From: an uncultured Pseudomonadota bacterium
GTDB taxonomy: Bacteria > Pseudomonadota > Gammaproteobacteria > Competibacterales > Competibacteraceae
DNA length: 33,439 nt
Direction of reading: 5' to 3'
Assembly: GCA_903844665.1 (NCBI GenBank)
Contig: CAIMUS010000204.1
Coordinates: 1 to 33,439, forward strand
In this document: positions 10,697-24,882 of the stretch, piece by piece
Position numbering within the stretch: position 1 is the stretch's first letter
How the letters are laid out: each line of letters begins with the position of its first letter
Notes under the pieces: model-generated
The model's input: the letters and a program-made list of their open reading frames with translations, nothing else
The model's database searches: none
What the model was told of the DNA's origin: nothing
Position numbers and translations under genes: made by a program

Positions 10697-11503
10697 ATGG
10701 CTGAACCGGTCTTCGATGTCTGTAATATCAAGTACAGCTACCAGCGCGTGGCCGCGCTCGATGGCCTGTCGCTGACGATCGGGCAGGGTCAGCGCATTGC
10801 CCTGTTAGGCGCCAATGGCTCGGGCAAATCCACCCTGCTGCGCGTGCTCGATGCCCTGTATTTTCCCCAGGCGGGTCAGGTTTCCGCCTTCGGCGAGCCG
10901 CTGACCGAGGAACGGCTGCAAGACGAAGCCTTCGCCTTCGCTTTCCGCCGCCGGGTCGGGATGATCTTCCAGAATCCGGAAGTGCAACTGTTCAACCCCA
11001 CGGTCTTCGACGAGGTCGCTTTCGGACCCTTACAACTGCGCTGGCCCGGCGAGCGGATTCGCCGCCAAGTCACCGAAACACTGGAACTGCTGGGCATCGC
11101 CCAGTTGAAAGACCGACCGCCGCACCGTCTATCGGGCGGCGAGAAAAAACGGGTGGCGCTGGCCTCGGTGCTGATCCTCGATCCTGAAGTCTTGTTGCTG
11201 GACGAACCGACCGCCGCGCTCGATCCCCAGAGTCAGAGCCAGTTGATCGAATTCATGATCGGTTGGGGCGGCGGCGTCAAGACAGTGATCGTGGCCACCC
11301 ACGATCTGGACAGCGTCGAGGATATCGCCGATCACTGTCTGGTCATGCAAAACGGCCGTATCGTCGCACAAGGACAACCCGCGACGATTCTGTACGATGA
11401 ACCGCTGCTGCGCCAAACCGGCCTGATTCATGCGCATCGCCATGGCCACGCCCACGGCGAAATGCACGTTCATCATCATTTGCATCGCGCTCCGCCGGAT
11501 TAA
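10697..11503 (+). CDS. cbiO: Cobalt/nickel ECF transporter ATPase CbiO with His-rich tail
   Basis: ATP-binding subunit of the metal uptake system, 268 aa. It has Walker A GANGSGKST at about 37-45, Q-loop FQNPEVQLF, signature LSGGEKKR at about 144-151, Walker B EVLLLDEPTAALD at about 161-173, and the switch His in ATHDLD. The last ~25 residues are unusually His-rich, with HAHRHGHAHGEMHVHHHLH. Such tails are known in nickel and cobalt handling proteins and may buffer the metal at the cytosolic face. Whether the metal is Ni or Co is not resolved by sequence. The operon ends here; the accessory island begins directly downstream. Confidence 0.9.
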   Translation: MAEPVFDVCNIKYSYQRVAALDGLSLTIGQGQRIALLGANGSGKSTLLRVLDALYFPQAGQVSAFGEPLTEERLQDEAFAFAFRRRVGMIFQNPEVQLFNPTVFDEVAFGPLQLRWPGERIRRQVTETLELLGIAQLKDRPPHRLSGGEKKRVALASVLILDPEVLLLDEPTAALDPQSQSQLIEFMIGWGGGVKTVIVATHDLDSVEDIADHCLVMQNGRIVAQGQPATILYDEPLLRQTGLIHAHRHGHAHGEMHVHHHLHRAPPD

Positions 11504-11511
11504 GCCTGGTA

Positions 11512-11591
11512 TGTCTGCTCGTATGAATACGGTAGTGCTGTAGCCGGATTTTCTCGCGGACTTGATCGAGCAGAAGGGGCTTGTCAACCAT
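11512..11591 (-). pseudogene. 5-prime remnant of an integron-type tyrosine recombinase gene (intI-like)
   Basis: Reading down from an ATG at 11591 gives MVDKPLLLDQVREKIR then LQHYRIHT. Integron integrases characteristically start with a segment of the form LLDQVRERIRxxHYSIRTEQAY. After HYRIHT a one-base loss would restore TEQTYQ (DNA at about 11512-11524), after which the similarity ends, 8 bases from the cbiO stop. Only about 25 of some 320 codons remain, so it is non-functional. The family assignment rests on this short but distinctive N-terminus. It reads away from the island genes that follow, as intI does relative to its cassettes. Confidence 0.55.
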
Positions 11592-11681
11592 AACCGGAAG
11601 GCGTATAAACCTTTTTCACAGAGTGTGTCTTTACCAAGCTGAATCATAGTCAAAATAACTACTTTTGACGCCTTGGCCGGG

Positions 11682-11729
11682 ATAGACACCACATCTGGGG
11701 TAATTTGTGGCGCCATTTCGGGTGTCTAT
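11682..11729. repeat. 9-bp inverted repeat in the gap before the HEPN-like gene
   Basis: ATAGACACC (11682-11690) and GGTGTCTAT (11721-11729) are exact reverse complements, 30 bases apart. They lie in the 257-base space between cbiO and the HEPN-like gene, where an integron attachment site would be expected if the integrase remnant is real. A GTTAGCT at 11744-11750 is one base from the GTTRRRY core. I cannot call an attI site from this. Apart from the integrase remnant nothing else is visible in the gap. Confidence 0.35.
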
Positions 11730-11760
11730 TTCATGTTAGCTGGCACTCATCACACTGAGC

Positions 11761-12396
11761 ATGCGAAAACCGTTCTGGTTGATTGACGGCAAGTTGCGGG
11801 AAGCCGATTTCTTCCTCGACAAGCTACGCACGTCTCTCGCTCTCGACGATGCACGCTTCTACTTCAGCGCATTCGTGTCGGCGACGCGCTCGGTGACCTA
11901 CGCGATACAGGCTTGCCTGAAAAGAGCACCTGGTTTCTCGGAATGGTACGCGGGAAGAAGGGCAGAGCTCACGAACGATCCTCTCGCCAAGTATTTTCTC
12001 TGCGCCCGCAACACGAGTGTGCACGTTGGCCTCAACCCGCTTGGCCTGCTGCAGCGCAGCATGTTGGGCACGTCTGAATTCTTTCTCTATGGCGAGAAGG
12101 TTCCTGAGCGAAATGCTGTCGCGGGCGCCACACGATACATGTCCTCACTGGTAGACATCGCTGGGGAGGCGTTTTCCAAGTTCTGGTCATTCCTCGACCT
12201 TTCCCATGACGTCACCTTAGCCTCGCTCTTGCGTGACGGGCACTCGATCGAGGATATCGAGGCCGAGTTCGGACTACCGAAAGGCTGGTCGCGTGGTGAG
12301 GGCCGGACTGACGAAGAGCGCTTGGAACTTCTCAAGCAGTACTCACGAACCGACATCCAGAGGCTTCGGCAAAAGTATCCCATGCAGGCTAACTAG
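11761..12396 (+). CDS. HEPN-like protein of unknown role
   Basis: Predicted soluble protein of 211 aa that I do not recognise as a named family. Two features stand out: a helical segment DARFYFSAFVSATRSVTYAIQ at about 30-50, and ARNTSVH at 82-88, which fits the R-x4-6-H motif of HEPN ribonuclease domains (Arg83, His88). HEPN proteins are often toxins or defence RNases. Here no nucleotidyltransferase (MNT) antitoxin sits next to it. The C-terminal part (EDIEAEFGLPKGWSRGEGRTDEER...) is charged and of unknown function. The ATG at 11761 has no strong ribosome-binding site. The gene is the first intact one after the integrase remnant and precedes a RelB/RelE-type pair. Confidence 0.6.
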   Translation: MRKPFWLIDGKLREADFFLDKLRTSLALDDARFYFSAFVSATRSVTYAIQACLKRAPGFSEWYAGRRAELTNDPLAKYFLCARNTSVHVGLNPLGLLQRSMLGTSEFFLYGEKVPERNAVAGATRYMSSLVDIAGEAFSKFWSFLDLSHDVTLASLLRDGHSIEDIEAEFGLPKGWSRGEGRTDEERLELLKQYSRTDIQRLRQKYPMQAN

Positions 12397-12398
12397 CC

Positions 12399-12459
12399 AG
12401 CGCGTAGGTTGGGGTGAGCGCGTAGGTTGGGGTGAGGAACGAACCCCAACCTACGCGCT
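12399..12459. repeat. Direct and inverted copies of a 17-bp repeat (REP/BIME-like)
   Basis: AGCGCGTAGGTTGGGGT occurs at 12399-12415 and again at 12417-12433. Its exact reverse complement is at 12443-12459, separated from the second copy by 9 bases. The unit lies 3 bases after the stop of the HEPN-like gene. Such CGTAGGTTGGG palindromes are common intergenic repeats in proteobacteria. It may act as a terminator or mRNA stabiliser, but that is inference. Confidence 0.75.
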
Positions 12460-12500
12460 ATTGTTATTATGAAATGTATAGCAAAGATCGGGACATACGC

Positions 12501-12713
12501 ATGTTGGCAATTCATCTACCCCCTGAAATTGAACAACGCCTTGAGCGTTTGGCCAAGCTTACCGGACGAACCAAGGCTTATTATGCTCGTGAGGCTATCC
12601 TGGAGCATCTAGAGGATTTGGAAGATACCTATCTAGCCGTTGAGCGCTTGCAGCATCCGGCCAAGCGTTGGACCCAGGATGAACTGGAGCAGGGACTTGA
12701 CCTGGACGATTGA
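12501..12713 (+). CDS. RelB/ribbon-helix-helix antitoxin
   Basis: A small protein of 70 aa. It begins MLAIHLPPEIEQRLERLAKLTGRTKAYYAREAI, the pattern of a ribbon-helix-helix DNA-binding domain (beta strand, then two helices). It ends in an acidic tail (DELEQGLDLDD) of the kind that wraps the toxin. The ATG at 12501 fits the family start; the frame is open upstream to 12432 but runs into the repeat. The antitoxin would neutralise the RelE-like toxin whose gene overlaps its 3-prime end by 17 bases. Antitoxins of this type usually repress their own promoter. Confidence 0.8.
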   Translation: MLAIHLPPEIEQRLERLAKLTGRTKAYYAREAILEHLEDLEDTYLAVERLQHPAKRWTQDELEQGLDLDD

Positions 12714-12972
12714 ATGGGATGATCGCGCGAGGCGGGAGTTGCGCCAACTTGATCACCAGGCCCAGCGAGAGATTCTGCGATTTTTTAGAGAGCGTATCGC
12801 TACCGATGAGGATCCGCAGAGGTTTGGTAAACCCCTGAAGCATGAATTGCAGGGCTTGTGGCGTTATCGGGTTGGCGCTTATCGCATGGTATGCCGTATC
12901 GAGGATAAGCGCTTGGTTGTTCTGGTATTGAGCGTCGGTCATCGTGGCACGATTTATCGCCAATCTCGCTAA
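12697..12972 (+). CDS. RelE/ParE-family toxin
   Basis: Predicted toxin of 91 aa. The sequence TWTIEWDDRARRELRQLD, then LQGLWRYRVGAYRMVCRIED and VLVLSVGHRGTIYR, is the standard RelE-superfamily pattern: an N-terminal beta strand and helices, then the conserved GLWRYRVGxYR core and the closing GHR...Y. A TTG at 12697 gives the family N-terminus and has GGAG/AGGG just upstream. An in-frame ATG at 12679 is the alternative. RelE-type members cut mRNA at the ribosome, while ParE-type members attack gyrase; sequence alone does not decide. It overlaps the antitoxin by 17 bases, so the two are translationally coupled. Confidence 0.8.
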   Translation: MTWTIEWDDRARRELRQLDHQAQREILRFFRERIATDEDPQRFGKPLKHELQGLWRYRVGAYRMVCRIEDKRLVVLVLSVGHRGTIYRQSR

Positions 12973-12973
12973 T

Positions 12974-13120
12974 TAGTGTCTGACCGAAAACCTCTGTTTA
13001 GCACCCTGTAGGAGCGAGCTTGCTCGCGAATCCAGCTAAATTGCCGCTGCACGTCCCTTTCGCGAGCAAGCTCGCTCCTACAGGGGGTAACCGGGTTTTG
13101 TAGTTTTCGGTCAGGCACTA
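12974..13120. mobile_element. 147-bp MITE-like element with nested palindrome
   Basis: The ends TAGTGTCTGACCGAAAAC (12974-12991) and GTTTTCGGTCAGGCACTA (13103-13120) are inverted repeats with one mismatch in 18. Inside is a perfect 26-bp inverted repeat (13005-13030 and 13059-13084) containing GTAGGAGCGAGCTTGCTCGCGAA. The element starts 2 bases after the toxin stop codon. TA at both outer edges is compatible with a TA target duplication as in Tc1/IS630-type elements, which is inference. It has no coding capacity. The inner palindrome recurs at 24902-24975. Confidence 0.7.
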
Positions 13121-13238
13121 AATAGGCCAATGACGATATCATGCATTTTGTCCAGTTTGGAGAAGTAAATTGTCTGTCGAGCCAACCGTTTGATGCGCGC
13201 TCAAATATACGATATCCAACTTTAAAACACTACCCTCT

Positions 13239-13430
13239 TCACGATATCTCGAGCTCAGCAACTCTGCGAACGTTGGGAATGCTTCCGCTTGTCAGTTCTT
13301 TATAAATGTCGATTAAATTCTCCTTCAATTCCTCCTCCGTTTCTCCCTGTGTCCAGTAGTCTGGAAATTCTTCGAGGTGTCCCAACCACATGTCGTCGTC
13401 TTTCCAATAAATATACTTGCTTTTCACCAT
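13239..13430 (-). CDS. HicB-like antitoxin (partner hicA broken)
   Basis: A 63-aa protein with YIYWKDDDMWLGHLEEFPDYWTQGETEEELKENL, the partial RNase H-like fold typical of HicB. Strands are followed by a helix with the G-x-T-EEEL-x-N motif. It has no obvious C-terminal DNA-binding domain. AGGTGA precedes the ATG by 8 bases. The stop TGA (13239-13241) overlaps a GTG in a GTGA, as in many hicB-hicA operons. The frame from that GTG reads V-K-R like HicA but closes at 13222-13224 after six codons, and only a GYRIFERASNG-like stretch survives in another frame. The antitoxin therefore seems to have outlived its toxin. Confidence 0.65.
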   Translation of the reverse strand: MVKSKYIYWKDDDMWLGHLEEFPDYWTQGETEEELKENLIDIYKELTSGSIPNVRRVAELEIS

Positions 13431-13472
13431 CTCGATATCACCTCATCAGCAATCATTGAGAGTGAAGCTTGG

Positions 13473-13531
13473 CCCTAACGCTGGGCATGAGCCACGCGGT
13501 TTACCGCATCGGCTCCCTGCCCTCGTTAGGC
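13473..13531. other. attC-like recombination site (integron cassette site), 59 bp
   Basis: CCCTAAC (13473-13479) and GTTAGGC (13525-13531) form the ends of an imperfect hairpin. The inner arms GGGCATGAGCC and GGCTCCCTGCCC pair with small mismatches around a central segment. The GTTAGGC end fits the GTTRRRY core exactly; the other end differs from RYYYAAC by one base. Length and layout agree with integron attC sites. It lies upstream of the hicB-like gene (minus strand). The direction of the site cannot be fixed by eye. Confidence 0.5.
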
Positions 13532-13611
13532 TAGATAGCCAGATCGTTACTCAAAACTTGGTTTGTCCTCTATTTTCCCACTACCTGGCTTCACTTGCAG
13601 CCATTTCAGTG

Positions 13612-13700
13612 GTAGCCCGGATGTAGGCCAGAGGCCGGAATCCGGGATTCGAGAGTGGAACCCGGATTGCGCTTCGCAAGCTCCGCTCCATCCGGGCTAC
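13612..13700. repeat. 89-bp REP-like element with perfect 12-bp ends
   Basis: GTAGCCCGGATG (13612-13623) and CATCCGGGCTAC (13689-13700) are exact inverted repeats. The interior contains a second arm pair (GGAATCCGGGATTCG and GAACCCGGATTGCG). This is a familiar kind of intergenic palindrome in proteobacteria. It abuts the ABC ATPase gene fragment at 13703. A related copy lies at 16561-16592. Confidence 0.7.
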
Positions 13701-13702
13701 GC

Positions 13703-13803
13703 TGGCTGCTCGATGAACCGACCCAGGGGATGGGCCGCGAAGACGTGGAGCGCGTGACCGGGCTGATCGAGCGGGCGGCGGCTAACCGTACCGTGCTAAT
13801 GGA
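13703..13803 (+). pseudogene. Internal fragment of a LivG-type ABC transporter ATPase gene
   Basis: The frame from 13703 reads WLLDEPTQGMGREDVERVTGLIERAAANRTVLM. This is the Walker B region of branched-chain amino acid (LivG/LivF-like) ATPases: LLDEPTQGMG followed by a helix and a TVLM strand that should run on into VEHD/VEHN. Here the match stops after TVLM at about 13803. On the other side it is cut by a REP-like element. Only about 33 codons remain, on the opposite strand to the neighbouring methyltransferase. It is a stray piece brought in by rearrangement. Confidence 0.65.
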
Positions 13804-13817
13804 GCGATTTGTTAGCC
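13780..13817. other. Possible truncated attC end at the 3-prime side of the restriction-modification pair
   Basis: On the minus strand, directly after the methyltransferase stop, the DNA reads GGCTAACAAATCGCTC. This has the look of an attC inverse core and its adjoining arm. A matching GTTAGCC lies 24 bases further on (RC of 13780-13786), but the intervening sequence belongs to the ABC ATPase fragment. I read it as an attC cut by the rearrangement at about 13803. The 7-bp complementarity could also be chance. Confidence 0.25.
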
Positions 13818-13818
13818 G

Positions 13819-15054
13819 TTACTGCCACCTTGCCGAAACATCAAACTCGATCAGTTCTTTCTTTGAGTTGCGCTTGCGAATGGGCCTGATCTCGATGTCG
13901 GTAAAGCCCATCTCGGCCATGATGTGGACATATATCTTCTCGACTGACAAAAGCTCACCGTAGAAGGTCGAGTTGCCGACGATGTAGTGAAGCCGGGCCC
14001 GCGGCGCGAGGATAGCTCGCAGTTCCGCGAAGTGCTGCGCCATATCGACGCAATACTTTCGGATATAGGCGGCGAGTAGGGCACCGTTCGCGTTCTTGGG
14101 GCTCGCAACACGGGCAAGCGTTGCCTCCAATTCCTGGGATGTGTAAGCGTTCTCCTCGGGCTTCCAGTCGTTAAGGCGACTCGTCGCGACGCCCCAGGTC
14201 CCACCAATCGCGAGCCAGTCGAGTTCCCCGGCGTCGCGCCCGTTCACGAGGAAGCGCAGCCAGTACATATACGGGCGCAGTTCGCGAATGTAAGACATCC
14301 GGTTGGCGTAAGGGGGCGAGGTTACAACCAGATCGAATGGCTCGGTTGTGAGCTTCGAGAGCTTTCGCGCATCATGCAGGATAACCTTCGCCTCCCCTGT
14401 CGGATTTTCGAGGGCCCCCTTGAGAACGAAGGCGACGTTCTCGTGGAAGAGGCCGGCGTAATCCGTTCCTATATCGAGCTCGGGCTGCGGGTTATCCTTG
14501 AAGGACATAGATTGATGGTTAAAGGCCGCGTTCGAGCATGCGATCAGCGTGCGGCAGAACGCAATGCGCAAAAGCTTCCCCTCACCGGTTCCTGGTGGAA
14601 CGGTTTTGTCGATCGCGGCCTGTAGCCGGCAGAGGAAGGTGAGGGCGGCAGGCAGCCACCATCGCTCAATGTTGTGGATCGGCGGCGGCAACGCTGGCTC
14701 GACAATCTGCGCCTTGACCAACGCGAGTACTTCCACGCCCGCGTTTCGCGTCTGCATGACGGTGTCGGCTGAATAGTGGGCGGTCTTCGTCTGACCGAGC
14801 CAGACAAGAAATGCGTTGATGTCCGTGGTTGCGGCATCATGCCCGTGATAAGCAGCGCTCAGCGCCGTGGTGGCAGTACCGCAAAAGGGATCGAAAACGC
14901 GCAGATGGCCGTGGGTACGGTCCATCAGTTCTTCAACGATTTTCACCGAGTAGGCCGGCGTGAGGCGAAGCCAGCCATGCCGCCCGGTTGTTAGATTGTA
15001 CTTGTGAGTATAGTCCGCGCGTTGCCGGAGCTGATCGAAGGCAAGGTGTGTCAT
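13819..15054 (-). CDS. Type II DNA methyltransferase (beta-class, probably N4-cytosine)
   Basis: A 411-aa modification enzyme of a restriction-modification pair. The AdoMet-binding motif FDPFCGTATT is at 54-63 and the catalytic motif TSPPY at 245-249. TSPPY is typical of N4-cytosine (and some N6-adenine) beta-type enzymes. ANRMSYIRELRPYMYWLRFL follows the catalytic motif. A late NSTFYGELLSVEKIY segment resembles the C-terminal part of this class. The ATG at 15054 shares ATGA with the stop of the endonuclease gene upstream, so the two are translationally coupled. The methyltransferase is second in the operon. The recognition site cannot be read from sequence; similarity to M.CfrBI-type enzymes is suspected, not proved. 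Confidence 0.85.
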   Translation of the reverse strand: MTHLAFDQLRQRADYTHKYNLTTGRHGWLRLTPAYSVKIVEELMDRTHGHLRVFDPFCGTATTALSAAYHGHDAATTDINAFLVWLGQTKTAHYSADTVMQTRNAGVEVLALVKAQIVEPALPPPIHNIERWWLPAALTFLCRLQAAIDKTVPPGTGEGKLLRIAFCRTLIACSNAAFNHQSMSFKDNPQPELDIGTDYAGLFHENVAFVLKGALENPTGEAKVILHDARKLSKLTTEPFDLVVTSPPYANRMSYIRELRPYMYWLRFLVNGRDAGELDWLAIGGTWGVATSRLNDWKPEENAYTSQELEATLARVASPKNANGALLAAYIRKYCVDMAQHFAELRAILAPRARLHYIVGNSTFYGELLSVEKIYVHIMAEMGFTDIEIRPIRKRNSKKELIEFDVSARWQ

Positions 15055-15866
15055 CTGGCCTCCGGTGTCAGCAGGGACTGAAGAACCTTGTCGATCTCAT
15101 CGCGGAGGGTCTGCCGGTTGCGCTCGAAGAATCCCGCGAGGTCGTAGCCTACGATCTCGCGCGTGAAGTCGTAAGTCGAGCGGAGCGGATCATTTAGTCC
15201 GACCAAGCCGGTGAGCACCGACCACTTCTCGGCGCGGTATCGGACCAGGATATCGGAGTCGATTTGCGCGGAGAGAATGACCGCGCAAGGTAGATAGCTC
15301 TTAATGTAAGCGGTCGCAGCATTGGCGATATCCGCATTCTGGCGTTTCGAGTCCTTACTCTTGTAACCCTGGCGGACCTCGAAGATGGTTCCTGTAAGGG
15401 CGGCGAAGACGTTGGCTTCGACGCCGACGGTATCGGCTGATTCCTTCATCCAATCATGGAAGCGCTTGCGGGCTTGCTTATTCGGGATCTCGGCAAGTGG
15501 AACGCGGCCGTCGAGGTAAAGCGTGCGCTTCTTGCCATTCGTGCCTGTCACTTCATAGGACCAAGTGACGGCTTCGGATGACAACCCGAGTGAGTCTTGG
15601 AGAACATGCCGAAAGACGCGCTCGCAGCCAATGCCGATCTGGCGATAGATGCTCGTCATCCCTCCAGCGGCCCTGTGGGCAGCGTACATTAGCGGGTTGT
15701 CGAGGCCGAACCAGCTATAGAACGGATCCTTTTGGTACAGACCTTGAAACTGCTCAAGCGTGAGACCGGCACCCGCCCCTTGGCCGAACTTGGGTTTGTA
15801 CTTCGCACACACCCGGATCGGGTCCAAGATCACTTCGAGGTACTTGGCGTCGTTTTTTGACAACAA
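15051..15866 (-). CDS. Type II restriction endonuclease (possibly CfrBI-like)
   Basis: About 271 aa. It overlaps the methyltransferase start by 4 bases, which by itself argues for a cognate endonuclease. A possible PD-(D/E)xK nuclease core is GTIFEVRQGYKSKDSKRQNADIAN, where Glu and Lys of E-V-R-Q-G-Y-K could be catalytic. The N-terminal half has NDAKYLEVILDPIRVCAKYKPKFGQG and a MTSIYRQIGIGCERVFRHVL segment that I associate, with limited certainty, with CfrBI-type enzymes (site CCWWGG). AAGGAG stands 9 bases ahead of a TTG at 15866, so I prefer that start. The frame is open to a TTG at 15968, but that would lie inside the attC-like site. Confidence 0.6.
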   Translation of the reverse strand: MLSKNDAKYLEVILDPIRVCAKYKPKFGQGAGAGLTLEQFQGLYQKDPFYSWFGLDNPLMYAAHRAAGGMTSIYRQIGIGCERVFRHVLQDSLGLSSEAVTWSYEVTGTNGKKRTLYLDGRVPLAEIPNKQARKRFHDWMKESADTVGVEANVFAALTGTIFEVRQGYKSKDSKRQNADIANAATAYIKSYLPCAVILSAQIDSDILVRYRAEKWSVLTGLVGLNDPLRSTYDFTREIVGYDLAGFFERNRQTLRDEIDKVLQSLLTPEAR

Positions 15867-15936
15867 CTGCGTAGACTCCTTCGAGGAATTCCTGTCTTGC
15901 GTGTCGCGCAACACCGCACGTAGTAGCACCGGGTAT

Positions 15937-16014
15937 GACGGCTGACGTGCCGCATAACCGGCTGCCAACGAAGCGCAGCGTAGTTGGCAGTCCTAGTTGA
16001 TGCGATTGTTAGGC
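15937..16014 (-). other. attC-like recombination site between the DUF2442 gene and the restriction-modification pair
   Basis: Read on the minus strand it begins GCCTAAC (RYYYAAC consensus, 16014-16008). It contains a perfect inverted repeat CTGCCAAC (15990-15983) and GTTGGCAG (15969-15962), and continues GGTTATGCGGCAC to GTCAGCC, an imperfect core. GTTATGC (15958-15952) is an alternative core. The TAA stop of the DUF2442 gene lies inside GCCTAAC, the usual arrangement for a gene cassette. One core is degenerate, so the site may be inactive. Confidence 0.5.
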
Positions 16015-16281
16015 TGCTTGCCTGTGCAGACGACGCGCCGGCGAACCATGCAACATGCCTTCCACGCTAATGTCTTCGTCTATATCGGGCCAGTGGATGC
16101 CCTGACCATCGCCGAGAATTTCAAAATTCTGTCGCTGCTCTTCGGCGGCTTCCGACAAACGCCATGACCAGATCAGCGGAACACTGATTGTGCGCCCATC
16201 GATGAGATGAGCAATAATCTCATCTTCGGTAATTTCAGCATTCAACAGACGAGGTTCTACGACGTTAACCACAGTGTTCAT
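16009..16281 (-). CDS. DUF2442-family protein
   Basis: A 90-aa protein of the DUF2442 family. The hallmark is the stretch NAEITEDEIIAHLIDGRTISVPLIWSWRL (two beta strands and a W-R-L turn), then ARR near the end. DUF2442 genes are often paired with DUF4160 genes in a toxin-antitoxin-like arrangement, and here the DUF4160 frame overlaps its start by 17 bases upstream. The biochemical role is not known. The stop codon is within the attC-like site, which suggests the pair moved as a gene cassette. The ATG at 16281 lies within the end of the DUF4160 frame. Confidence 0.8.
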   Translation of the reverse strand: MNTVVNVVEPRLLNAEITEDEIIAHLIDGRTISVPLIWSWRLSEAAEEQRQNFEILGDGQGIHWPDIDEDISVEGMLHGSPARRLHRQAA

Positions 16282-16501
16282 GCCAAGCCTCCAATATGCT
16301 CGGTAAATGGGTTTCGATGAGTTTCCGAATGACGTTGAGTTCCTTTGGCGAAAAGCCGCTATTCTTGCCGAGATAAATCGGCTCCAGCCAAAATTTGCAA
16401 ATCAGTTTATCCCGTTGCACATGGACATGTTTCGGCTCGCCGCAATCGAAGCTGTAAAAGAAGAATCAATAAGGGCCGGGAATATTCTTGATGCTTGGCA
16501 T
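16265..16501 (-). pseudogene. DUF4160-family gene with an internal TGA stop
   Basis: From the ATG at 16501 the frame reads MPSIKNIPGPY, then TGA at 16466-16468, then FFFYSFDCGEPKHVHVQRDK. It continues to a TAA at 16265-16267 (79 codons in all). Family members have PGPYRFFFYS at this place, so one C-to-T change (CGA to TGA) explains the stop. The rest is intact, including GEPKHVHVQRD and the closing EAWHEHCG. Translation could restart only at weak internal sites, so the partner of DUF2442 is probably lost. A 65-aa reading frame on the plus strand over the same DNA is a shadow. Confidence 0.8.
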
Positions 16502-16560
16502 TGATTCCTCATTGCGCCGATTTTTGCGTTATCGGCAAACCTCAAGCTGTTTGGCGATTT

Positions 16561-16622
16561 CCCGGATTCCGCGAAGCTTCATTCGGGCTACGCTTGCTTG
16601 TCGGGCACGCCCTGTGCCCGAC
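16561..16622. repeat. REP-like palindromes between the DUF4160 frame and the Sel1 gene
   Basis: CCCGGATTCCGCGAAGC followed by ATTCGGGCTACG (16561-16592) resembles the REP-like element at 13612-13700. Directly next to it, GTCGGGCAC (16600-16608) and GTGCCCGAC (16614-16622) form a 9-bp stem with a 5-base loop. The pair follows the Sel1 gene on the minus strand and could serve as its terminator. Confidence 0.55.
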
Positions 16623-16638
16623 CTACCCGGCTGTTCTT

Positions 16639-17340
16639 TCAGACTGGGCCGAATTGGTAAAACATCCCTACCGTAGATTCCAGGGTGGCAGCCGTCTGTT
16701 GTGCCGCCTTCCGATAGAGGCGTATCGCCTCTGCTTTATCCTTGGGGAGACCTCCACGCCCTTCCTCGTACAAGAGTCCTAGTGCTTGCTGTGCCCCTGC
16801 AGCAGCAAACCCCTTTGTTCCTTCAGTGAGCCAGCGGACTGCCTCAGCATCGTTCTGCGCAACTCCAGAACCGGTAAGGTACATCTTGCCTACAGTCGTT
16901 TTCGCAAGTGCATTGCCACTCTCGGCTGCCTTAATTGCACCCTCGTAACCACCGGCAAAATGAAATGGCTGCTTTGAGAATTCTCGCAGCGCAGACTGTG
17001 CTCCTTTACGAAACCAGGCGAGCGCCTGTTCTTCGCTATGCGGAACGCCGAGGCCATCAGCGTACATGAGACCTAACACAGAGGCTGCGCTGACATTTCC
17101 TTGTTCTACAGCTTTGCGATACCAACTCGCGGCTTCACTCTCATTCTTGGCAACACCAATTTCTTTTTGATACATAATCCCCAGGAAGCATTGCGCATCA
17201 GCCTTTCCTTGTTTCGCTTCGTTCATCATTGTAGTGACGAAATTGCGACGATATTCTTCAGACGATCCCTGTGGGTTCTGTGCGCAGGCACATAGAGAGA
17301 CACCAATACTCAACACTAGAGTTATTACAAAAGGCTTCAT
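16639..17340 (-). CDS. Sel1-repeat (TPR-like) lipoprotein
   Basis: A protein of 233 aa, probably exported. A hydrophobic signal at about 3-17 ends SLCAC, a plausible lipobox with Cys19. At least four Sel1-like repeats of about 36 residues follow, with the usual A-x3-LGxMYxxGxGVxxxxxEAxxWxxKA pattern: CFLGIMYQKEIGV, SVLGLMYADGLGV, TTVGKMYLTGSGV, QALGLLYEEGRGG. Such solenoids bind other proteins; the partner is unknown. I choose the ATG at 17340; a TTG two codons earlier is the only nearby alternative. The gene lies at the edge of the accessory island. A GTTAGGC (minus strand, 17375-17369) stands upstream of it. Confidence 0.8.
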   Translation of the reverse strand: MKPFVITLVLSIGVSLCACAQNPQGSSEEYRRNFVTTMMNEAKQGKADAQCFLGIMYQKEIGVAKNESEAASWYRKAVEQGNVSAASVLGLMYADGLGVPHSEEQALAWFRKGAQSALREFSKQPFHFAGGYEGAIKAAESGNALAKTTVGKMYLTGSGVAQNDAEAVRWLTEGTKGFAAAGAQQALGLLYEEGRGGLPKDKAEAIRLYRKAAQQTAATLESTVGMFYQFGPV

Positions 17341-17513
17341 TCTCAATTTCTCGACGAGTAATACCCGCGCCTAACAAATGATTCTATGGTTTCCATATAA
17401 CCTACCACAACCCGTTGTCCTTGAAAAGAATTACTTGATCTTGCTAGCCTTTGCTAGCTGTATAACATCCCCCAGCACAAGTTATCCAACCCATGGATAT
17501 CATGACATATCAG

Positions 17514-17613
17514 GTATTCCCCCGGAACTGGCCCGTTTCTACAAGACGCGATTGGCACAGCAGGGTGTTGCGGTCGAGCATCGTCATCACGAACCACTTT
17601 CAGCTCTCCGCTG
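17514..17613 (+). pseudogene. Possible N-terminal remnant of a second tyrosine recombinase
   Basis: The plus strand reads GIPPELARFYKTRLAQQGVAVEHRHH and then a degenerate SALRCHYC. Tyrosine recombinases of a class I know from gammaproteobacteria begin in a similar way (PPEL...FY...L...GV...H-H-Y-x-KWLRYYLDF). The similarity is short and from memory, and it ends where the minus-strand SPFH gene stops (17617). The rest of the 276-base gap from 17341 shows a short palindromic TGCTAGC pair (17446-17462) and nothing else I can name. Confidence 0.25.
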
Positions 17614-17616
17614 CCA

Positions 17617-18594
17617 CTACTGTCCCGTCTTCGGAGTGGTTGCCGGTATAGGAGAAACCGCCGGTGGTGTCGCCGCAGTCGAACCCATAATATCGCCCAC
17701 CAACGGGACTCCCATGGCGCCTACGGGCACATAAATAATAGTGTGATTCTGGGAGTTGGCCATGGCCAGTTGCGCCTTGATGGCCTCGTACTGGAGATAC
17801 GACGGCGTCAACTGTTGATTGATGATCGTCATGGCTTCGGCGATGCCACGGGCTTCGGCCACCCGTTTCTCGGCCTCCTTTTGGGCGATTTTGATCTCCG
17901 TATCGGTGCGCTCCAGATTCTGCGTAGCCGCCAGTTTTTTGGCCACCGCATCGGCCACCTCCGGCGGATACTGAATATTGCCGACGACCACGCTGATAAT
18001 ATCGAACGGGGTGTCTTTTACCAATGCCGCCAACTGCTCTTGAATACTGCGTCCGATATCGCTGATTTTGTCCTTGATATCCATGCCTTTCAACTGCTGG
18101 ACGGCATTGCGGGCGGCAGTGCGCAAGGGTTCCTGCAAGTAATTCTGATACGCCACGCGCACGATCTGCTCGGGATTCTCTCCCTGTCCCAAGGTGGAGT
18201 AGCGTTCGACGAAAGCCTGCACCCGGTCCGGCCTGACCCGCCAGACGATATGGATCCGAAAACCGACGTTCAGATTATCCTGCGACAGGACCGAGTTCTG
18301 GCCCAGAAACTCCTCGCCATAGGTGTAGGGCGTAATCGACACATTGGTAACCCGCAACAACCAGCCCAGACCCGTGCTGGTAGGTCCGGTTTGCAGTCCC
18401 ACATACTTGGCTTTACCGACCAGGGCGCCGCGGGTGATATAACCGACGTAACCCGCCGGGGTATAGGGGTTACTCATGAACTGGAAAACCGCCAGCACGG
18501 TGAGCAGGCCGGCGGCGGCGACCAGGATGGTCGCTCCCCGGCGCAGCCGGGGAGTCAGAGCGGGTGGAGTCAGCATGGCAAAACGCACTGGCAT
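17617..18594 (-). CDS. SPFH/band 7 (prohibitin-like) membrane protein
   Basis: A 325-aa protein with one N-terminal helix (about 22-40). The SPFH domain runs from about 45 to 235, with GYVGYITRGALVGKAKYVGLQTGP and VGFRIHIVWRVRPDRVQAFVE. A helical Ala/Glu/Lys-rich region follows (EIKIAQKEAEKRVAEARGIAEAM, about 236-260). The tail is Pro/Thr-rich. Proteins of this family form large membrane-bound rings or microdomains with proteases or other partners (HflK/C, prohibitin); no partner gene is next to it. The ATG at 18594 (MPVRFAMLTPP) precedes the helix and fits. It faces argC with 171 bases between the two starts. Confidence 0.85.
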   Translation of the reverse strand: MPVRFAMLTPPALTPRLRRGATILVAAAGLLTVLAVFQFMSNPYTPAGYVGYITRGALVGKAKYVGLQTGPTSTGLGWLLRVTNVSITPYTYGEEFLGQNSVLSQDNLNVGFRIHIVWRVRPDRVQAFVERYSTLGQGENPEQIVRVAYQNYLQEPLRTAARNAVQQLKGMDIKDKISDIGRSIQEQLAALVKDTPFDIISVVVGNIQYPPEVADAVAKKLAATQNLERTDTEIKIAQKEAEKRVAEARGIAEAMTIINQQLTPSYLQYEAIKAQLAMANSQNHTIIYVPVGAMGVPLVGDIMGSTAATPPAVSPIPATTPKTGQ

Positions 18595-24668: not shown

Positions 24669-24867
24669 TGAAATTGTTGATGAGATTCACTCCATTCGTC
24701 AACAACATGCCACCCGCTTCGATTTCGACATTGATCGTATCATCGACGATCTGCGCGTCGGCCAGGAAAAGCATGCTGCCGAGGGTTGGCCCTTGCGCAA
24801 AGCCTCGGACACACCGCCGATCAATCCTAACTCTGCATTGCAGCGGACTCGCTTCGCTCGCCGCTGA
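24652..24867 (+). CDS. Small protein, former partner of the PIN-domain gene; its tail is encoded by an attC-like site
   Basis: 71 aa, starting MTRLTDEIVDEIHSIRQQHATRFDFDIDRIIDDLRVGQEKHAAEGWPL. I recognise no named domain. Helical proteins like this follow PIN-domain genes and may be their antitoxin; the 17-base overlap with the PIN fragment supports the pairing. The last residues NSALQRTRFARR are encoded by the attC-like site at 24825-24882 and the stop is inside it. That is typical of cassette genes whose frame runs into the recombination site. Confidence 0.6.
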   Translation: MTRLTDEIVDEIHSIRQQHATRFDFDIDRIIDDLRVGQEKHAAEGWPLRKASDTPPINPNSALQRTRFARR

Positions 24868-24882
24868 ATATTCATGTTAAAC
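24825..24882 (+). other. attC-like integron recombination site, 58 bp
   Basis: TCCTAAC at 24825-24831 is one base from RYYYAAC. GTTAAAC at 24876-24882 fits GTTRRRY exactly. Between them GCAGCGG and CCGCTG form the arm pair, around the central palindrome CGAGCGAAGCGAG (plus-strand reading CTCGCTTCGCTCG). The length is within the usual attC range and the site lies at the 3-prime end of a small plus-strand gene. It is the best-formed attC-like site in the window. No integrase gene is nearby. Confidence 0.7.

Follow-up and report, generated by a model that had tools for sequence, protein, structure and literature searches.

Paired integron remnants in a Competibacteraceae genome and the possible retention of the first integrase codons as part of a cassette promoter

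The 33,439-nt contig CAIMUS010000204.1, from an uncultured member of the Competibacteraceae and hereafter called the window, almost certainly contains integron remnants. The affected region, 11505-17602, would correspond to two decayed chromosomal integrons placed head to head, with cbiO on one side and a Band-7 gene on the other. Platform A, which breaks off next to cbiO, would face platform B, which breaks off next to the Band-7 gene, each retaining attI and only the first integrase codons, with the A cassettes on the plus strand and the B cassettes on the minus strand. We regard the presence of two platforms as very probable. The codons that survive in platform A overlap a promoter-like sequence, and the explanation as a whole, in which two head-to-head integrons decayed and the stub codons were retained as part of the cassette promoter Pc, appears likely.

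Results

To the right of cbiO, the minus strand read from position 11591 carries ATGGTTGACAAGCCCCTTCTGCTCGATCAAGTCCGCGAGAAAATCCGGCTACAGCACTACCGTATTCATACGAGCAGACATACCAGG, which encodes MVDKPLLLDQVREKIRLQHYRIHT; one base is missing after codon 24, and EQTYQ continues in the next frame. This intI-A stub (11505-11591, minus strand) comprises the first ~29 codons of an integron integrase, and its end at 11505 lies directly after the cbiO stop codon. The first-pass annotation had assigned HYRIHT to an IntI-type start and had proposed that one base was lost before TEQTYQ. Both statements are borne out, the latter by the minus-strand frame, which is one base short after HYRIHT, and the former by alignment with the N-termini of many intact IntI proteins from family-level relatives, which were identified with TIGR02249 (best E-value 1e-9, which applies only to the small local collection searched, these intact IntI among its loci). 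Identity reaches 80% over 25 amino acids, as in the example KPKLLDQVREKIRLKHYSIRTEQAY, from an intact IntI of a relative. The profile search with a mended frame that the same annotation had called for gave a weak match of the 30 frame-joined residues to positions 1-22 of PF13495 (Phage_int_SAM_4; E 0.0025, below the curated cut-off). The uncorrected peptide matched no Pfam family, its matches among PDB sequences were at chance level (N-WASP, zinc finger) and included no tyrosine recombinase, BLASTN of 11505-11620 against plasmids returned short chance matches only, and an IUPAC scan for the intI start in collections of genome contigs and viral contigs gave no match. Membership in the IntI family is thus assigned from N-terminal homology, the IntI-specific insertion near the C-terminus being absent from the fragment. 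Full-length intI does not occur at 11505-17602, where ~29 codons (A) and ~36 codons (B) are left.

The stub belongs to a repeat. Positions 11542-11739 have copies of 79-89% identity elsewhere in this genome that share the intI start and fall into subfamily A (the window, C320, C269, C86 and C280) and subfamily B (C342 and C17). Each attI-bearing copy has a GTTRRRY-type core (GTTAGCT in the window, GTTAGGC in others), then ~150 bp, and then the intI start; the copies diverge outside the core, and the next gene begins ~20-60 bp beyond it. Intact integrons of relatives have the same intI/attI/core layout, several of them with AACAT(G/A)AAGTAGAC-like ends at the core. Because the repeat family ends at the core and the relatives share this layout, we designate 11592-11741 (plus strand) the putative attI-A. 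It lies directly upstream of intI-A and ends in the core at 11735-11741, 20 bp before the first accessory gene, so that, by sequence layout, an attI next to intI has its GTTRRRY-type core at the cassette junction. The genome has nine such intI-start stubs, seven of which keep attI; C319 and C160 have lost it and keep only the stretch around the intI start. At the DNA level, the repeat family was not found in 58 relatives, and the copies represent one lineage.

The gene bordering remnant A, cbiO (10697-11503, plus strand; PF00005, 4.7e-33), encodes a cobalt ECF transporter ATPase and belongs to the host; the gene upstream of it is CbiQ (TIGR02454, 2.4e-37). The end of the gene looks natural, since residues 1-266 of the 268 in the window CbiO align with a Hyphomicrobiales CbiO. 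In 38 family relatives, just one CbiO reaches even 47% identity. On the other side of attI-A, 20 bp after the core, the first gene in cassette position (11761-12396, plus strand) encodes a 211-amino acid protein of unassigned family with no match in Pfam, NCBIfam or PADLOC and with distant plasmid homologs (28-44% identity). After this gene, GTAGGTTGGGGTGAG repeats form a palindrome at 12398-12460. A RelB-like antitoxin and ParE/RelE-type toxin pair follows (12432-12972, plus strand; NF048017, 1.4e-24, and PF05016, 1.5e-12). The covariance model found no attC after the forward genes of remnant A; their status as cassettes therefore depends on position and orientation. Between the plus-strand and minus-strand cassettes lies a 149-bp element (12973-13121) in which inverted ends, TTAGTGYCTGACCGAAAA, surround a long palindrome, GTAGGAGCGAGCTTGCTCGCGA. 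It resembles a MITE around a REP-type repeat, and we take the palindrome to be similar to Pseudomonas REPs.

The cassette genes of the minus strand (13239-17346) and their attC are wrongly oriented for attI-A. They are explained by a second intI start and attI at 17369-17602, which make two integrons of the region and account for the minus-strand cassettes in 13239-17372. The intI-B stub (17495-17602, plus strand) is the N-terminus of a long-form integron integrase (IPPELARFYKTRLAQQGVAVEHRHH). It is 62% identical over 24 amino acids to a longer remnant on another contig of this genome, C180, and 48% identical to an intact long-form integrase of the relative G010; intact long-form matches occur in two relatives. 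The C180 remnant matches PF13495 and was considered as a short-form intI, a candidate that was rejected when it proved to be a long-form integrase remnant. Adjacent to intI-B, the attI-B segment (17369-17494, minus strand; core GCCTAAC at 17369-17375 as read on the plus strand) aligns with the 5' regions of the long-form integrases of two relatives with local scores of 157 and 131, compared with a best score of 59 against 200 shuffles of the C180 sequence. No clear Pc was seen at the start of long-form remnant B. The first-pass annotation had tentatively read 11504-17616 as a lost integron or its edge. An IntI fragment, an attI-like segment and attC are indeed present, which upholds the integron; the proposal was incomplete in that there are two, and it had overlooked the repeat family with its attI, the second intI start and attI, and the promoter-like sequence over the retained codons.

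Array B begins with a Sel1-repeat protein (16639-17346, minus strand; PF08238, 1.6e-30), followed on the same strand by a DUF2442 gene (16009-16281; PF10387, 6.5e-20), a cassette-like type II methyltransferase and restriction enzyme pair (13819-15968; PADLOC MTase_II, 1.7e-22, and REase_II, 1.8e-85), and a small UPF0150-like (HicB-type) gene (13239-13430; PF21748, 3.7e-5, below the curated cut-off). The attC-like sites that had been noted beside the accessory genes proved to be of unequal quality, and all lie in array B. The site at 13473-13531 (minus strand) is strong, with R'' GCCTAAC, R' GTTAGGG and 52.7 bits in covariance model R1, for which it was a training sequence. The site after the DUF2442 gene (15940-16014, minus strand), whose R'' box contains the stop codon of that gene, is degenerate and weak (17.2 bits). 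After the restriction-modification pair there is only half an attC (GGCTAACAAATCGCTCCA, ~13800-13817, minus strand; a partial model match), with a 5' half identical to that of attC sites on C342 and C254. Away from 11505-17602, a lone attC-like site at 24825-24882 scores 30.5 bits and is outside the training set. Rfam assigned no family in the window. The motif GTAGGTTGGG occurs 14 times in 176 kb of loci from this genome.

Model R1 was built from twelve sites chosen by their R boxes and stem. At E 1e-6 it finds 69 attC sites on 37 contigs of this genome, many of them solitary, and 0-7 in each of 38 family relatives, a comparison that favors the former because the model is partly trained on it (seven of the 12 sites are from other genomes). 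In its dispersed attC sites, the genome stands apart from the rest of its family. Five attC on each of C342 and C17 are oriented as expected from attI, and the long-form stub on C180 has at least three; most of the attC in these arrays lie outside the training set. These arrays indicate that these three stubs are real integron platforms. The assembly is a draft of 348 contigs, two of which, C253 and C254, start inside intI (bases 1-208) and open with the same 69 C-terminal residues, which implies that the assembly was interrupted at no fewer than two copies of intI. With these two intact IntI C-termini at the ends of contigs, the genome may still encode a working integrase.

The predicted Pc of platform A (11581-11609, plus strand) consists of a -35 element, TTGTCA (11581-11586), a 17-nt spacer and a -10 element, TATAAA (11604-11609). 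The -35 element falls inside intI codons 2-4, antisense to intI, and the promoter would be directed toward the cassettes. A sigma70-like TTGNCA-N17-TATANN motif with its -35 at intI codons 2-4 is present in all nine stubs: the -35 covers intI nucleotides 6-11 (TTGTCA, or TTGCCA in C86), the -10 is TATAAA, TATATT or TATACT, and the spacing is 17 throughout. TTGACA occupies the same nucleotides in three relatives whose intI (starting MNVKP or MDVKP) is intact or nearly so. In a position-weight scan of ~340 nt per copy, the motif ranks first in eight of nine copies and second in C160, scoring 10.7-12.8 compared with a shuffled median of 7.5 and a 95th percentile of 10.6. When the genome was searched for the Pc pattern, eight real copies and one weak match were found, and the reversed control gave none. 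Across seven aligned copies, nine of the 12 hexamer columns are invariant, compared with 38 of 163 columns elsewhere (Fisher p 0.0004, kinship ignored); some of this conservation is due to the common descent of the copies. A stricter consensus promoter scan called no promoter in the region; it misses the window Pc because the -10 lacks a T at position 6, and this conserved T is absent from the TATAAA of subfamily A. From its composition, position and conservation, the motif is best interpreted as a candidate cassette promoter.

The nine short-form stubs break at differing points between ~nt 14 and ~nt 87 of intI, all within ~29 codons. In C280, C86, C319 and C180, the break coincides with short palindromic repeats or lies close to them, an indication that intI may have been deleted between repeats at these loci. 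The relatives show graded decay: G026 C9, G030 C19 and G015 C291 have internal deletions that spare the intI start, and G015 C233 has an intI stub.

Discussion

We propose that intI would have eroded while Pc was retained. Loss of the integrase gene would spare the first codons since they would double as promoter sequence for the captured genes; the motif would be transcribed, selection would have kept it, and deletion at repeats or gene ends would have removed the rest. That the first intI codons persist as a stub because Pc was retained is, on balance, the interpretation we favor. The ~29-codon upper limit goes beyond what Pc alone explains and requires near-complete erosion of the remaining intI.

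A chance resemblance to IntI of an open stretch of 24-29 codons would suit the unmended peptide, which has no Pfam family and no tyrosine recombinase in the PDB; we give this reading practically no weight, because homology to many intact IntI N-termini speaks against it, and the 79-89% identical copies with the same intI start (eight further copies of the start, most with attI-like DNA), together with the attI and attC context, rule it out. More serious is the possibility that intI was deleted at random and that the promoter motif was simply inherited, with no selection involved. Copies within a subfamily are 80-97% identical and the sample is nine non-independent copies, as this would predict; yet the motif persists in C86, although the intI ATG is gone there, and in C319 and C160, where attI is missing, and the spacing of 17 is held by all nine. 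On this evidence we consider neutral deletion unlikely, while leaving it a real share of the probability.

The stubs might also be copies of one small dispersing element, an attI plus intI-start unit akin to delta-attI cassettes and copied by the integrase or another recombinase, rather than leftovers of many integrons. The ~50 nt past the truncation are common to C269 and C86 and take in the final codons (LRRQS*) of the cation-efflux gene on the C269 side, a junction that indicates copying of the unit after truncation, although plain segmental duplication or import would account for it as well. The restriction of the family to one lineage at the DNA level, as judged against the 58 relatives, also fits dispersal, as does the recombination competence of delta-attI cassettes with attI fragments in class 1 and 2 integrons (PMC12901181). 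However, the other copies are truncated at varying points, the full attC arrays of C17 and C342 are what one would expect of whole integrons, and intI decay in relatives is graded, and we therefore judge dispersal rather unlikely. A bolder extension, which we find quite improbable, is that Pc and attI form a lasting, duplicating module from which integrases are repeatedly discarded down to the -35 codons. The orphan units would then continue to drive cassettes, and might capture them, at a dozen or so loci, using integrase provided in trans. The decay of whole integrons, with the Pc-bearing codons spared, remains our preferred explanation.

Standard integron detection depends on recognizing an integrase, so integrons with fewer than 30 intI codons would go unnoticed or be scored as loose clusters of attC. 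The codons that survive here lead to attI and to a candidate cassette promoter, and offer a sequence-based way to find such platforms. They also allow a prediction: once the integrase is lost, whatever remains of intI should be the stretch of use to the captured genes.

It is well known that cassettes can outlast their intI, as in the CALIN of IntegronFinder (PMC9024848), and in Xanthomonas intI is commonly truncated or deleted (PMC12444791). The region resembles a chromosomal (sedentary) integron with inactivated intI, or a CALIN, in its cassette-type genes (toxin-antitoxin, restriction-modification) and its attC without a working integrase, with attI present; one strong and one weak attC without a full integrase lie in 11400-17700; a CALIN is defined by at least two attC. 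It differs in that attI and the intI start survive, that two unrelated platforms stand head to head, and that the genome has nine such stubs. Repeated erosion of intI down to Pc across one genome does not appear in the accessible portions of the literature on orphan or remnant attI or intI. A Pc inside intI is known from class 1, class 3 and Pseudomonas stutzeri integrons, and the class 1 Pc lies 223-252 bp from the attI crossover (PMC8876359). The promoter predicted here is likewise inside the integrase gene and antisense to it, but has its -35 at codons 2-4 and its -10 upstream of the intI start. Delta-attI cassettes, in which attI fragments occur in gene cassettes of class 1 and 2 integrons (PMC12901181), offer a third parallel, in that the attI fragments vary in length, have the crossover core as their fixed end and lie behind another gene. 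The published fragments are described as the 3' sites of resistance cassettes, whereas the genes upstream of the stubs described here are host genes such as cbiO and the cation-efflux gene, cbiO having the appearance of a host operon gene.
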